From: Rubrivirga marina
Lineage (GTDB): Bacteria; Bacteroidota; Rhodothermia; Rhodothermales; Rubricoccaceae
Length of the DNA stretch: 64,000 bases
Assembly (NCBI RefSeq): GCF_002283365.1
Contig: NZ_MQWD01000001.1
Location: forward strand, 745,694 to 809,693
Direction of reading: 5' to 3'
In this document: positions 16,123 through 21,344 of the stretch, in pieces
Numbering within the stretch: position 1 is the first letter of the stretch
Layout: the number at the start of each line of letters is the position of its first letter
The notes under the pieces: model-generated
Databases searched by the model: none
What the model was told of the DNA's origin: nothing
What the model saw: only the letters and a program-made list of their open reading frames with translations
Position numbers and translations under genes: made by a program

Positions 16123-16812
16123 TTACCCCAGCGCCCGCATCACCGCGAGCGCCCGGCCGAGGACGAAGTACTCCGGGTCGTCGGGGCGGACCGTCTCGTC
16201 GGCGTAGGTCCGGTCGGCGGCGCGGAAGTGGAGCCGGTCGTTGACGACCTCGAACTGGCGGACCACCACGTGGTCGTAGAACAGGACCGCGGCCATCGCC
16301 CCGTTCGGGACGTCTCGCCAGTCCCGCTCCTCGACCACCACGAGGTCGCCCTTCCGAACGCCGGCCCCGTTCATCCCGTCGTCGCCGACGCGGACGCCGA
16401 GGCAGTCGTCGAGGTCGACGTCGTCGGGGAGCAGCGCGGGGTCGACGAGGAGCGGACGGCGCGAGCGCGGGAGCGGGTGGTCGGCCGTCTCCGACGTCAT
16501 CATCCGCGCCCGCCGCCCGACGCCCTCCTTCAGCTTGAGCATGAGGACGCCGGGGGGTTCGTCGGCGTCGTAGCCCCGCTCCTCATCGACGAGCTCGATG
16601 CCGCGCGCCTCGTGCTTCGTCCGCGTGATGTAGCCCTTCTCCTCCAAGACCACGAGCATCTTGTAGACGCCGTTCGTCGACTTGATGCCGAGGCTCTGAC
16701 CGATCTCCTTGATCGTCGGCGGCTTCCCGTTGCGGCGGACGTACGTGCGCAGGAATTCGTAGACCTGGTTCTGCCGCTCGGTCAGGGCGGGGCGGGCGGA
16801 GGAGGCGGGCAT
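16123..16812 (-). CDS. LexA-like repressor with inactivated self-cleavage domain
   Basis: The 229-residue protein keeps the LexA winged helix (residues 9-75: LTERQNQVYEFLRTYV, KPPTIKEIGQSLGIKSTNGV) and the S24 peptidase fold (VDPALLPDD to the C-terminus). Against E. coli LexA, the catalytic Ser119 position is Gly146 (RVGDDGMNGAG), the catalytic Lys156 position is Arg185 (VVVRQF), and no Ala-Gly cleavage bond is present in residues 85-120. It therefore should not self-cleave on RecA activation and is probably a stable DNA-binding regulator. It is divergent from mraZ; two identical palindromes in the gap are its likely operators. Fold call is firm; the regulatory role is inferred. Confidence 0.9.
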   Translation of the reverse strand: MPASSARPALTERQNQVYEFLRTYVRRNGKPPTIKEIGQSLGIKSTNGVYKMLVVLEEKGYITRTKHEARGIELVDEERGYDADEPPGVLMLKLKEGVGRRARMMTSETADHPLPRSRRPLLVDPALLPDDVDLDDCLGVRVGDDGMNGAGVRKGDLVVVEERDWRDVPNGAMAAVLFYDHVVVRQFEVVNDRLHFRAADRTYADETVRPDDPEYFVLGRALAVMRALG

Positions 16813-16856
16813 CGTGACGGAGGGGCTAGGGGATCTCCTGACGGCAAGCTAGCACG

Positions 16857-16872
16857 GTGAAATCATTTTCAC
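16857..16872. promoter_or_regulatory. Palindromic operator, copy 1
   Basis: GTGAAATCATTTTCAC has 6-bp inverted arms (GTGAAA/TTTCAC) and lies 45 bp upstream of the lexA-like start. An identical copy lies 32 bp away centre to centre, about three helical turns. Probable binding site of the LexA-like dimer, giving autoregulation. Confidence 0.7.
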
Positions 16873-16888: not shown

Positions 16889-16904
16889 GTGAAATCATTT
16901 TCAC
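16889..16904. promoter_or_regulatory. Palindromic operator, copy 2
   Basis: This is an exact second copy of GTGAAATCATTTTCAC, in the same orientation as copy 1 and nearer to mraZ. It is AT-rich against a very GC-rich background. The pair is placed to control both divergent genes. Confidence 0.7.
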
Positions 16905-16958: not shown

Positions 16959-16967
16959 TTATCCACA
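16959..16967 (+). promoter_or_regulatory. Perfect DnaA box upstream of mraZ
   Basis: TTATCCACA matches the DnaA consensus exactly. At this base composition I expect far less than one such 9-mer by chance in 64 kb. It stands alone, so it is a possible regulatory site and not an origin. Confidence 0.5.
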
Positions 16968-16998: not shown

Positions 16999-17035
16999 GT
17001 GGGGTACTTTGGGGGAGCAGTGGGGAAAAGTGGGG
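16999..17035 (+). promoter_or_regulatory. MraZ-box direct repeats
   Basis: Four TGGGG repeats start at 17000, 17010, 17021 and 17031, a spacing of 10, 11 and 10 bp. Known MraZ operators are TGGGN repeats at 10-bp period upstream of mraZ. The array ends 50 bp before the mraZ start and overlaps a possible -7 element (TACTTTG, 17005-17011), which has a TTTG at 16979-16982 upstream. Confidence 0.75.
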
Positions 17036-17085: not shown

Positions 17086-17538
17086 GTGGCCGGTTTTAAA
17101 GGACAAGCGGAGAACTCCATCGACGGGAAGGGCCGAATGCCCGTCCCGGCGAAGATGCGACGGGCGCTCAGCCCGGACGCCAAGGAGACCTTCGTGGCCA
17201 CCCGCGGGATCGAGCGCTGCGTCTTCCTCTACCCCCTCAACGTGTGGGAGGAGATCGAAGAGGCCGTCCGGGAAAAGAACCAGTTCGTCGCGGCCAACCG
17301 CGACTTCGTCCGGACCATCGCCATGTGGGCGGACGAACTCACGCTCGATGGGCAGGGACGCGTCGGGCTCCCGAAGAACCTCATCGACTTCGCCGGGCTG
17401 CAGACCGGGAGCAAGGCCCTCGTCATCGGGGCCTTCGACCGCATCGAGGTCTGGGACCCCGACGTGTTCCAGGCCCACCTCAACGACCAAGACGAGTCCT
17501 ACGAGTCGCTCGCGGAGCGAGTGATGGGCGGGATCTAA
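17086..17538 (+). CDS. mraZ: MraZ, transcriptional regulator of the dcw cluster
   Basis: I chose GTG at 17086 because it yields 150 residues with the family N-terminus (FKGQAENSIDGKGRMPVPAK); the frame stays open back to about 16942, but that would cover the control region. Two SwapAB/AbrB-like repeats are visible: DGKGRMPVPAKMRRAL and DGQGRVGLPKNLIDF. MraZ forms a ring and binds TGGGN repeats in its own promoter. Four such repeats lie just upstream. It is the first gene of the cluster and rsmH starts 27 bp after it. Confidence 0.95.
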   Translation: MAGFKGQAENSIDGKGRMPVPAKMRRALSPDAKETFVATRGIERCVFLYPLNVWEEIEEAVREKNQFVAANRDFVRTIAMWADELTLDGQGRVGLPKNLIDFAGLQTGSKALVIGAFDRIEVWDPDVFQAHLNDQDESYESLAERVMGGI

Positions 17539-17565: not shown

Positions 17566-18675
17566 ATGACCGCCGTCCCCTCCATGACCCGCCCTCGCCG
17601 CCCGCGCCGCGCCGACCGCTCCGACGTCCCTCGCGTCGGGCCCGGCTCCGACGTGGGCGCCGACGGCGCGCAGGGGGGCGGCGGTGTGGATGCGCTCCGC
17701 TACGCCACGGCCTACCACGCCCCGGTGCTGGCGGCCGAGACGCTCGACCTCCTCATCACCGACCCGGCCGGCCTCTACGTCGACGGAACGCTCGGCGGCG
17801 GCGGCCACTCGGCCGCGCTCCTCGACGCGCTCGGCGAGGGCGCCCTCGTCGTCGGCATCGACCAGGACCCGGAGGCGCTGGCGACGGCGCGCGCTCGACT
17901 GGCCGACGCCGAAGCCGCCGGCCGCTTCGTCGCGCTCGAAGGCAACTTCGGCGACCTCGGCGCGCTGCTCGGCCGGGCCGGGCTGGGGCCAGCCCACGAC
18001 CGCCCCGCGACCGGCGTACTCCTCGACCTCGGCGTGAGCAGCCACCAGATCGACGAGGCCACGCGCGGCTTCGCGTTTTCCGCCGAGGGTCCGCTCGACA
18101 TGCGGATGGCCGCCGGCGGCACCGAGGCGGGTGAGACCGCCGCCGACCTCATCGCTCGTCTCGACGCCGACGCGCTGGCCGACGTCATCTATCAGTACGG
18201 CGAGGAGCGCCGCTCGCGTGCGATCGCGCGCGCGATCAAGAAGGCCGCCCCCACGACGACCGCCGAGCTGGCCGACGCCGTCCGCGCCTCGGTGCCGACG
18301 CGCGAGGAGGTGAAGTCGTTGGCCCGCGTCTTCCAGGCGCTCCGGATCGCCGTCAACGGCGAGATGGACGTTCTGGAGCGGGCGCTCCCGGCCGCGCTCG
18401 ACGTGCTGGCAGACGGGGGCCGCCTCGCGGTCATGTCCTACCACAGCCTCGAAGACCGCCGGGCCAAGCAGTTCCTCAAGACCGGCCGGTTCACGGCGCA
18501 GGTCGAGAAAGACTTCTACGGCAACCCGATCACCCCGTGGGCCCCGGTCACCCGGAAGCCCGTCACCGCGAGCGACGCCGAGATCGCCCGCAACCCCCGC
18601 GCGCGGAGCGCCCGCCTCCGCGTCGCCGAAAAGCAGACTCCCCCCGGACCCTCCGAGCGACGCCCGGGAGCGTGA
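17566..18675 (+). CDS. rsmH: 16S rRNA (cytosine(1402)-N(4))-methyltransferase
   Basis: The 369-residue enzyme methylates C1402 of 16S rRNA using SAM. Motifs: YHAPVLAAETLDLL, the SAM-binding VDGTLGGGGHSAALL, LLDLGVSSHQIDEATRGFAF, and the C-terminal SYHSLEDRRAKQF. The first 50 or so residues, rich in Pro, Arg and Gly, precede the family N-terminus, so the true start may be later, although no better start codon stands out. It is the second dcw gene; its stop overlaps a GTG that could start the ftsL-like gene. Confidence 0.96.
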   Translation: MTAVPSMTRPRRPRRADRSDVPRVGPGSDVGADGAQGGGGVDALRYATAYHAPVLAAETLDLLITDPAGLYVDGTLGGGGHSAALLDALGEGALVVGIDQDPEALATARARLADAEAAGRFVALEGNFGDLGALLGRAGLGPAHDRPATGVLLDLGVSSHQIDEATRGFAFSAEGPLDMRMAAGGTEAGETAADLIARLDADALADVIYQYGEERRSRAIARAIKKAAPTTTAELADAVRASVPTREEVKSLARVFQALRIAVNGEMDVLERALPAALDVLADGGRLAVMSYHSLEDRRAKQFLKTGRFTAQVEKDFYGNPITPWAPVTRKPVTASDAEIARNPRARSARLRVAEKQTPPGPSERRPGA

Positions 18676-19304: not shown

Positions 19305-21344
19305 GTGGTGCTCCTGGCGCTGCCGGTCCTCGTGGCCGCGCAGCTCGTCCGGATCCACCTCGCGGACGGCGACGAGCTGCGCGCGCAGGGCGAGCGGCAG
19401 TCGGAGAGCGTGATCGAGCTCGCGGCGCAGCGGGGCGCGATCCTCGACCGCCGCGGCCGGGCGCTCGTCGTCAACACGGCGCGGTTCGAAGTGGCGGCCG
19501 ACCCGACGGTCGCCGGCTTCGAGGAGCGGGCCGACGAGCTCTACGCCCTCCTCGGCGAGCTCACGGGCCGGGGCACGAGCCACTTCCGCCAGCGCGTCGC
19601 CAACCGGTCCAGCCGCCAGTACGTCGTCCTCGTGCGTGACCTCGACGAGGCGTCGAAGGAGGCCCTCGACGCGGGCGGCTTCCGCGGGCTCATCGTCCAG
19701 GGCTCGTACCAGCGGCGCTACAACTACGGCGCGCGAGCGGCCCACGTGCTCGGCCACGTCACGCGCGACCTCCGCGGGGTGGCCGGCCTCGAGATGACGC
19801 TCGACGAGGCGCTCCAGGGCGCGCCCGGCCGGCAGGCCGTCCAGCGCGACCGCCGCGGCCACGTTCGCGCCGTCGTCGGCGGGACGCGCGTGGAGCCGCG
19901 CCAGGGCGACAACGTGGTCCTGACCATCGACCTCGTGCGGCAGGCGATCCTCGAGGAGGAGCTCGCCCGCGGCGTCGAGGCGGCCGGGGCCGCCTGGGGC
20001 ACGGCCGTCGCCCTCGACCCCAAGACGGGCGCGATCCTCGCGATGGCGAACGTCCCGACGTACGACCCGAACCGCGCCGGGGCCTACTCCGACGCCGCCC
20101 GCCGCAACCACGCCGTCGTCGACCGGATCGAGCCGGGCTCGACGTTCAAGCTGGTCACGGCCATCGCCGCCGTCGAGAGCGGGGCCGTCGCGCCGGAGGA
20201 CGTGTTCGACACCGGCGCCGGCTGGCACGTCTTCCACGGGCGGACGGTCCAGGACGCCCACGCCTACGGCCGGATCACGTTCGCCCAGGCCATCGCCAAG
20301 TCGTCGAACATCGCGATGGCGCTGGCGGCCCAGCGGATCGGGCCGGGCCCGCTGTACGAGGCCGCCCGCGACCTCGGCTTCGGCCAGCCCACGTTCGTCG
20401 ACCTCCCCGGCGAGGTGGCCGGCTCCCTCCGCAAGCCGGAGGACTGGAGCGGGGCCACGCTGACGTCGATGAGCCGCGGCTACGGCGTCGAGGTGACGCC
20501 GCTCCAGCTGGCCGTCGCCTACAGCGCGTTCGCCAACGGCGGCCTCCTCGTTCGCCCCTTTATCGTGGCCGAGCGGCGCGACCCGGCGACCGGGCGCGTC
20601 GTGTGGCAGGCGCCGCAGGACTCGGTCCGCCGCGCGTTCCGCGCCGAGACGGCCGAGCGGCTGATGCCCCACTTCGAGGCCGTCGTCAGCGAGGACGGCA
20701 CGGCGGAGCGGGCGGCCGTCGAGGGCCTCCGGATCGCCGGCAAGACGGGCACGGCACAGCGCGCCGTCGGCGGCGGCTACTCGCGGACGTACCGGGCCTC
20801 GTTCGTCGGGATGTTCCCGGTCGAGGACCCCGAGGTCGTGCTCGCCATCGTCCTCGACCGACCGACGAACGGCTACGGGGGTGGGACCGTCGCCGCGCCC
20901 ATCTTCGGCGCTACGGCACGCCGCTGGATCGGCACGTTTCCGACGATCGCCGAGCGCGTGGCGCCGTCCGGGATGATCGCCGCGCGGACCGGCGCGCTCG
21001 TCCCCGACATCGACGGGCTCCCGGCCACGCTCGCCGCCCAGCGCGCCCGCGCCGAGGGCCTCCGCGTGCGCTACGACGAGGACCTCCCGTGGCGGACCGT
21101 CTCCGCGCGCGTCGAGACCGACTCGCTCGACCTCCGCGACCCACTCCGCCTCGACGCCTCCGACGAGGTGGCCGAGGGCCGGATGCCCGACCTCCGCGGT
21201 CGGAGCGTCCGCGAGGCCGTCGCGTGGCTCCGCTCGCTCGGCGTCGACGCCCGCGTCCGCGGGCACGGCGTCGTCCGCCGCCAGTCCGTCGCCCCGGCGC
21301 GCCCGCTGCCCGCGACGGTCGCGCTCACCGCCTCGAGACGATGA
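19305..21344 (+). CDS. ftsI: Division-specific peptidoglycan transpeptidase (PBP3/FtsI type) with PASTA domain
   Basis: The product crosslinks septal peptidoglycan. From GTG 19305 it is 679 residues: N-terminal membrane anchor, dimerisation domain (AAQRGAILDRRGRALVVN), transpeptidase with Ser279-Thr-Phe-Lys282, SxN at 333-335 and Lys480-Thr-Gly482, then one PASTA domain (MPDLRGRSVREAVAWLRSLG). The GTG falls inside the expected membrane segment. In-frame sequence upstream (ARDSILTRLYGVF) looks like the real N-terminus, but it offers only CTG 19251 or ATC 19260 as starts. Its stop overlaps murE (ATGA). Confidence 0.95.
   Translation: MVLLALPVLVAAQLVRIHLADGDELRAQGERQSESVIELAAQRGAILDRRGRALVVNTARFEVAADPTVAGFEERADELYALLGELTGRGTSHFRQRVANRSSRQYVVLVRDLDEASKEALDAGGFRGLIVQGSYQRRYNYGARAAHVLGHVTRDLRGVAGLEMTLDEALQGAPGRQAVQRDRRGHVRAVVGGTRVEPRQGDNVVLTIDLVRQAILEEELARGVEAAGAAWGTAVALDPKTGAILAMANVPTYDPNRAGAYSDAARRNHAVVDRIEPGSTFKLVTAIAAVESGAVAPEDVFDTGAGWHVFHGRTVQDAHAYGRITFAQAIAKSSNIAMALAAQRIGPGPLYEAARDLGFGQPTFVDLPGEVAGSLRKPEDWSGATLTSMSRGYGVEVTPLQLAVAYSAFANGGLLVRPFIVAERRDPATGRVVWQAPQDSVRRAFRAETAERLMPHFEAVVSEDGTAERAAVEGLRIAGKTGTAQRAVGGGYSRTYRASFVGMFPVEDPEVVLAIVLDRPTNGYGGGTVAAPIFGATARRWIGTFPTIAERVAPSGMIAARTGALVPDIDGLPATLAAQRARAEGLRVRYDEDLPWRTVSARVETDSLDLRDPLRLDASDEVAEGRMPDLRGRSVREAVAWLRSLGVDARVRGHGVVRRQSVAPARPLPATVALTASRR

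Follow-up and report, generated by a model that had tools for sequence, protein, structure and literature searches.

LexA is the textbook self-destroying switch of the bacterial cell, in which a catalytic serine, a lysine and an Ala-Gly bond are needed for RecA-stimulated autocleavage. Canonical LexA proteins, known from E. coli and Balneola (PMC7739468) and present at the Rhodothermales loci L043-L047, have in common with the protein described here a winged helix, an S24 fold and operators at their own promoter. They possess Ser119, Lys156 and the Ala-Gly pair and control SOS genes, whereas the clade described below has lost all three elements. LexA proteins that cannot be cut are already known. 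The LexA of Synechocystis sp. PCC 6803 is without the catalytic serine and the Ala-Gly bond, is not an SOS switch and seems to have its activity modulated by means other than cleavage (PMC3091678, PMC7567884). This protein represses without being cleaved, is the cell's own lexA product with its serine replaced by aspartate, and has many targets. The uncleavable E. coli variants lexA3 (G85D), which still binds RecA filaments, and S119A (1jhf, 1jhh; PMC6363387) keep the fold and lose cleavage, but are laboratory alleles of the SOS repressor. The non-canonical LexA proteins of Bacteroidetes are S24-family regulators from a related group that control the SOS response and carry a CI-type DNA-binding domain (PMC8565304). 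The single link between LexA and mraZ found in our literature search is the in vitro binding of B. subtilis LexA to a LexA site at an mraZ gene from a metagenome (PMC3998124). No paper on a conserved LexA-like gene divergent from mraZ in this phylum was found in the literature searched, which covered few subscription journals; the uncleavable state is known, and the conserved mraZ-linked clade of paralogues is absent from that literature.

The window analysed here, a stretch of 64,000 nucleotides from Rubrivirga marina, contains a LexA-like gene with the features collected in Table 1. Its reading frame starts with ATG and is the sole one at these coordinates to fit a preliminary description of the locus. 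The matches of the window protein to PF01726 and PF00717 both exceed the curated Pfam cut-offs. Residue equivalences were established by aligning the protein with E. coli LexA in HMMER and by MAFFT alignments of about 50 and 95 sequences. Both approaches equate Ser119 with Gly146 and Lys156 with Arg185, and no Ala-Gly scissile pair appears in the cleavage segment in these alignments. The 106 residues of the S24 part contain no serine and one lysine (Lys154), so that no other Ser/Lys dyad can be drawn.

Table 1 Features of the LexA-like gene and of the adjoining division locus in the window.
Feature	Position	Strand	Evidence
mraZ-linked LexA paralogue, 229 aa, cleavage-dead by residues	16123..16812	-	ORF, Pfam, clade tree
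S24-fold domain, residues 134-219, protease-dead by residues	16156..16413	-	PF00717 Peptidase_S24 3e-9
Arg185 in place of general base Lys156	16258..16260	-	alignment
Asp144-Asp145-Gly146 in place of E. coli LexA Gly117-x-Ser119	16375..16383	-	alignment
Linker/cleavage-loop equivalent, residues 90-124, without Ala-Gly, with own-genus insertion	16441..16545	-	alignments
LexA-type winged-helix DNA-binding domain, residues 9-71	16600..16788	-	PF01726 LexA_DNA_bind 8.3e-20; pLDDT 81-91
Predicted -7 element TAGCTTG of the LexA-like gene's own promoter	16845..16851	-	motif recurring in orthologues
Predicted proximal operator GTGAAATCATTTTCAC, perfect palindrome arms	16857..16872	.	genome pattern search
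Predicted distal operator GTGAAATCATTTTCAC, 32 bp from proximal	16889..16904	.	genome pattern search
Perfect DnaA-box sequence TTATCCACA, between operators and mraZ promoter	16959..16967	+	sequence
MraZ-box-like array upstream of mraZ, GGGG steps with a period of about 10 bp	17000..17035	+	read from sequence
Predicted mraZ promoter, -7 element TACTTTG	17005..17011	+	read from sequence
mraZ, divergent neighbour, first gene of division cluster	17086..17538	+	TIGR00242 101.7 bits, cut-off 98.35
rsmH (mraW)	17566..18675	+	TIGR00006 270 bits
ORF with penicillin-binding-protein motifs, after rsmH	19305-21344		ORF reading

An AlphaFold2 model of the window protein, built from 13 own and orthologous sequences, reached a moderate mean pLDDT of 70, with a good winged helix, a fair to good S24 core and a linker/cleavage region (78-124) that is poorly modelled at low confidence. 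The best structural match of the full chain is LexA (Z 13.7). Taken separately, the winged-helix part matches 1lea (Z 12.2, rmsd 1.6) and the S24 half matches 6a2q, the C-domain of M. tuberculosis LexA (Z 12.5, 2.4 Å over 98 residues). The preliminary description had read by eye both substitutions, the missing Ala-Gly bond and the retention of winged helix and S24 fold; the alignments agree with the former points, Pfam and structural matches with the latter, and a dyad elsewhere in the protein, which it had named as contrary evidence, is excluded by the residue count. The best curated model for the protein is TIGR00498 (lexA), yet its score of 89.2 bits falls below the equivalog cut-off of 110.95, as do those of four orthologues (94.6-108.7 bits). 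Judged by these residues and scores, the window protein is a member of the LexA family at the level of the fold and lacks the features of an SOS LexA for which it was tested.

Homologues drawn from some 300 genomes of the phylum and from named contigs split into two sets, canonical LexA with Gly117, Ser119, Lys156 and Ala-Gly, and a set that includes the window protein. In a tree from which the catalytic columns were left out, computed by a quick method and with some long branches, the window protein and 58 others occupy one branch apart from canonical LexA (SH-aLRT 97). All 59 members have Asp at position 117 (E. coli numbering) and Arg at position 156, where all 29 canonical LexAs have Gly and Lys, respectively. 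Position 119, a serine in 29/29 canonical proteins, is Gly in 53 members, Ala in three and Ser in three. The Ala-Gly pair is gone across the clade, and the scissile position is mostly Ser-Asp or Ser-His in the relatives. Since the same replacements recur throughout the clade, the loss of the cleavage residues is neither chance nor local decay. The three proteins with Ser119 (L048, L135 and L136) come from one family, are linked to mraZ and carry Arg at 156 and Asp at 117, possibly an intermediate state. Asp, the residue of the uncleavable lexA3 allele, is also the commonest one at the position of E. coli Gly85 (26/59). The conserved Cys137 was considered as a redox sensor and dropped, since canonical LexAs of the phylum often carry a cysteine there too.

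A profile of the clade scores at least 160 bits in 49 of the 114 genomes of the order and at most 99 bits with canonical copies; in another family, four divergent members linked to mraZ reach 85-97 bits. Two further classes contributed 29 loci, all with D117, G/A119 and R156 and all scoring about 170 bits or more, and the clade spans three classes of the phylum. Many relatives, e.g., Roseithermus and Salinibacter, encode a canonical LexA and the mraZ-linked paralogue in one genome. By its sequence and its place in the tree, the window protein is a separate, ancient LexA paralogue rather than the SOS LexA in mutated form. It resembles the Synechocystis protein in having a LexA fold without catalytic serine and Ala-Gly bond, but differs from it in forming a separate clade, in its D117, G/A119 and R156 signature, in its tie to mraZ and in its single operator pair. 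Unlike the non-canonical LexA of Bacteroidetes, it has a LexA_DNA_bind winged helix, not a CI-type HTH, and is without the cleavage residues.

Divergent orientation from mraZ was found for 56 of the 59 clade members, the other three having no mraZ in the flank examined, and for 25 of the 29 loci from the two further classes, where three of the other four loci are shortened by contig ends. No canonical LexA copy lies near mraZ among those examined. The preliminary description had placed the gene facing the cell-division operon, which holds true, as it is divergent from mraZ-rsmH-ftsI; the search it had proposed for Rhodothermota orthologues with the same substitutions and the same neighbourhood was positive and extended beyond that proposal to three classes. 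Two observations concern individual members: an outlying one (L039) has no mraZ nearby, and one mraZ-linked gene (G330:C5:356911-357552) contains, in this genome alone, an in-frame TGA and is likely a pseudogene or a sequencing error.

In the window genome, no cleavable LexA was detected by a PF01726 search. Downstream of a recO-like ORF lies a second LexA-type gene (L002, G000:C1:4694376-4697546, about 1484-2055), whose product keeps the winged helix but no longer has Ser119, Lys156 or Ala-Gly. Six relatives of L002 from the same family have lost Ser and Ala-Gly, while two of them keep a Lys, and all form one clade with L002 (support 100). The window's family may be without a cleavable LexA, except for one genome (L131) with a diverged copy bearing Ser, Lys and Ala-Gly. 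The window genome still encodes UmuD-like S24 proteins that have Ser and Lys, several of them near-identical (L006, L007, L008, L009, L011); of these, L011 seems to be a partial copy, and the S24 match of L009 contains a TAG. Seven Rhodothermus genomes have no PF01726 match other than the mraZ-linked gene. RecA was present in all 19 genomes searched, and recA promoters of the order (L145-L164) often carry a GTGACA...TGTCAC-like repeat, not a LexA box, just before a TAGCTTG-like element.

The window gene and mraZ are separated by 273 bp. The pattern GTGAAANNNNTTTCAC matches the 4.98-Mb genome exactly at two places, both located here, and the reversed control at none. These sites, absent from the preliminary description, form the predicted operator pair, and 5 bp separate the proximal one from a TAnnTTG-type element directed toward the window gene. 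In many orthologues, too, a TAnnTTG-like motif follows the proximal operator after a few bp, TATCTTTG in Rhodothermus. The spacing was determined in the 39 orthologous intergenic regions that yielded a pair, with pairs picked by fewest mismatches within 15-60 bp and not by spacing. It amounts to 32 bp in 18 regions, 31 or 33 bp in five, 22 bp in seven, 41-43 bp in six and 54 bp in three, which corresponds to 2, 3, 4 or 5 helical turns in 39/39 cases and never to a half turn. Distant clades have other operator letters at the same place, in or against the core promoter, e.g., a tandem CTGAACA-N3-TGTTCAG before TATCTT or GAACAAATGTTC between TTGAT and TATATT. It is mainly because the operator letters covary with the clade that the sites are assigned to the window protein, and from position, conservation and this covariation we infer that the operators belong to it.

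Genome scans for further operators used patterns, not weight matrices. With one mismatch allowed across 20 genomes, additional sites were about as frequent as in the reversed control and lay mostly inside reading frames, and a wider regulon was rejected on this ground. Exact matches to the operators of the window protein occur only at the promoter facing mraZ, unlike those of canonical LexA at SOS genes. No exact match was found at recA, where weaker sites are possible. The related genomes G316 and G318 have one common one-mismatch site near orthologous genes, and Rhodothermus has a one-mismatch pair inside a reading frame. At seven loci (L014, L018, L023, L072, L079, L080, L083) the operators are flanked by a same-strand pair of CACATA motifs about 110-130 bp apart; such pairs occur mostly in genomes with an intact LexA and in none of Rhodothermus or the window's family.

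On the mraZ side, the DnaA-box sequence TTATCCACA has six copies in the whole genome. Among orthologous intergenic regions, TTATNCACA occurs in 16/56 compared with 0.6 expected from shuffles, a count to which related genomes contribute without being independent. The GGGG array is named for its likeness to the MraZ-box consensus, and similar TTCCCCAC/TTTCCCCAC arrays precede mraZ in relatives, as does a recurring GTAC-TTG element. The 273-bp region may therefore take input from the window protein, DnaA and MraZ. The predicted mraZ promoter is about 100 bp from the distal operator, which makes its direct occlusion unlikely. As the putative operators sit on the window gene's own promoter and not on that of mraZ, the evidence favours autorepression over repression of the division operon.

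We consider it likely that this anciently diverged, cleavage-dead LexA paralogue works at the mraZ end of the division locus as its dedicated local regulator. Two dimers would bind both operators cooperatively on one face of the helix and would block RNA polymerase at the paralogue's own promoter, an autorepression that could hold the protein at a set level. Its residues argue against any RecA-stimulated cleavage and for a protein that is stable in the cell. Since it would not cut itself, repression would not be relieved by activated RecA; the protein might instead be diluted out, degraded, released by a ligand or displaced by DnaA or MraZ, which would compete with it on the shared 273-bp region. 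A weaker element of the proposal is that, through this shared region, the paralogue might also tune mraZ-rsmH-fts transcription. Control of mraZ and of division is plausible. Self-regulation alone has no obvious use, so that the picture probably lacks a target or a signal.

A main job in direct control of mraZ and division from operators about 100-150 bp upstream, whether by activation, DNA looping or antagonism to MraZ or DnaA, is a substantial alternative, albeit one to which we give somewhat less than even chances. The linkage is kept in three classes, the operators occur nowhere else and thus leave the window gene and mraZ as the genes that could be served directly, DnaA and MraZ boxes share the region, and the metagenomic mraZ site bound by B. 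subtilis LexA (PMC3998124) offers a precedent in vitro. However, the proximal operator adjoins the -7 element of the window gene and not that of mraZ, and relatives differ widely in how far the operators lie from the mraZ side. A repressor that senses a ligand or the redox state, with the old active-site pocket (Asp144, Arg185) as sensor or dimer lock, appears rather unlikely. The invariant Asp and Arg (59/59 each) point to selection for particular new residues over free drift and suggest a use for the old pocket, but this invariance could serve folding only, the ligand would be a hypothetical one, and the pocket with its linker is modelled at low confidence.

Still less probable is a role in DNA damage that dispenses with self-cutting, whether canonical LexA represses the gene via the flanking CACATA motifs or RecA filaments titrate the protein. 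The CACATA flanks accompany an intact LexA in relatives and are absent from seven Rhodothermus loci (no canonical LexA) and six loci of the own family (degenerate LexA), and E. coli LexA(G85D) binds RecA filaments although uncleavable (PMC6363387). Nevertheless, these losses are confined to a few clades, which makes the correlation weak; CACATA makes up only one half of the box (CACATATTnCACACAG-like) that canonical LexA has at lexA promoters, recA promoters are mostly without it, and the window genome has neither the motif here nor an intact LexA. With a half box that recA promoters mostly do not share, we make no claim that canonical LexA places the mraZ-linked gene under SOS control. It is very improbable that the gene is a decaying lexA without function: its catalytic residues are lost and the other LexA copy of the genome (L002) is degenerate, but its ORF is intact, the replacement residues are fixed across classes, and operators and synteny are conserved. 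The chance that a true SOS LexA was misaligned and has its dyad elsewhere is close to nil, even though TIGR00498 lexA is the best curated model, given an S24 part with no serine and one lysine, a score of 89 against a cut-off of 111 and a separate canonical paralogue in many relatives.

Extending the preferred reading of a local regulator, we tentatively suggest, at odds short of even, that the paralogue lost self-cleavage before the three classes split, became a RecA-independent regulator of the division cluster that integrates DnaA and MraZ, and outlived the cleavable LexA in Rhodothermus and in the window's family. A clade with the switch removed and new residues fixed, standing beside mraZ in three classes, provides natural material on an S24 fold that does not cut, and also opens the question of how division genes are controlled outside model bacteria. 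The single operator pair keeps tests simple. For genome annotation such lexA-like genes are a hazard, and an SOS prediction made from them would probably be wrong, e.g., in Rhodothermus, where no LexA-type gene other than the mraZ-linked one was found. The locus suggests that the division cluster has a conserved regulator which is distinct from the SOS switch and most likely controls its own gene.
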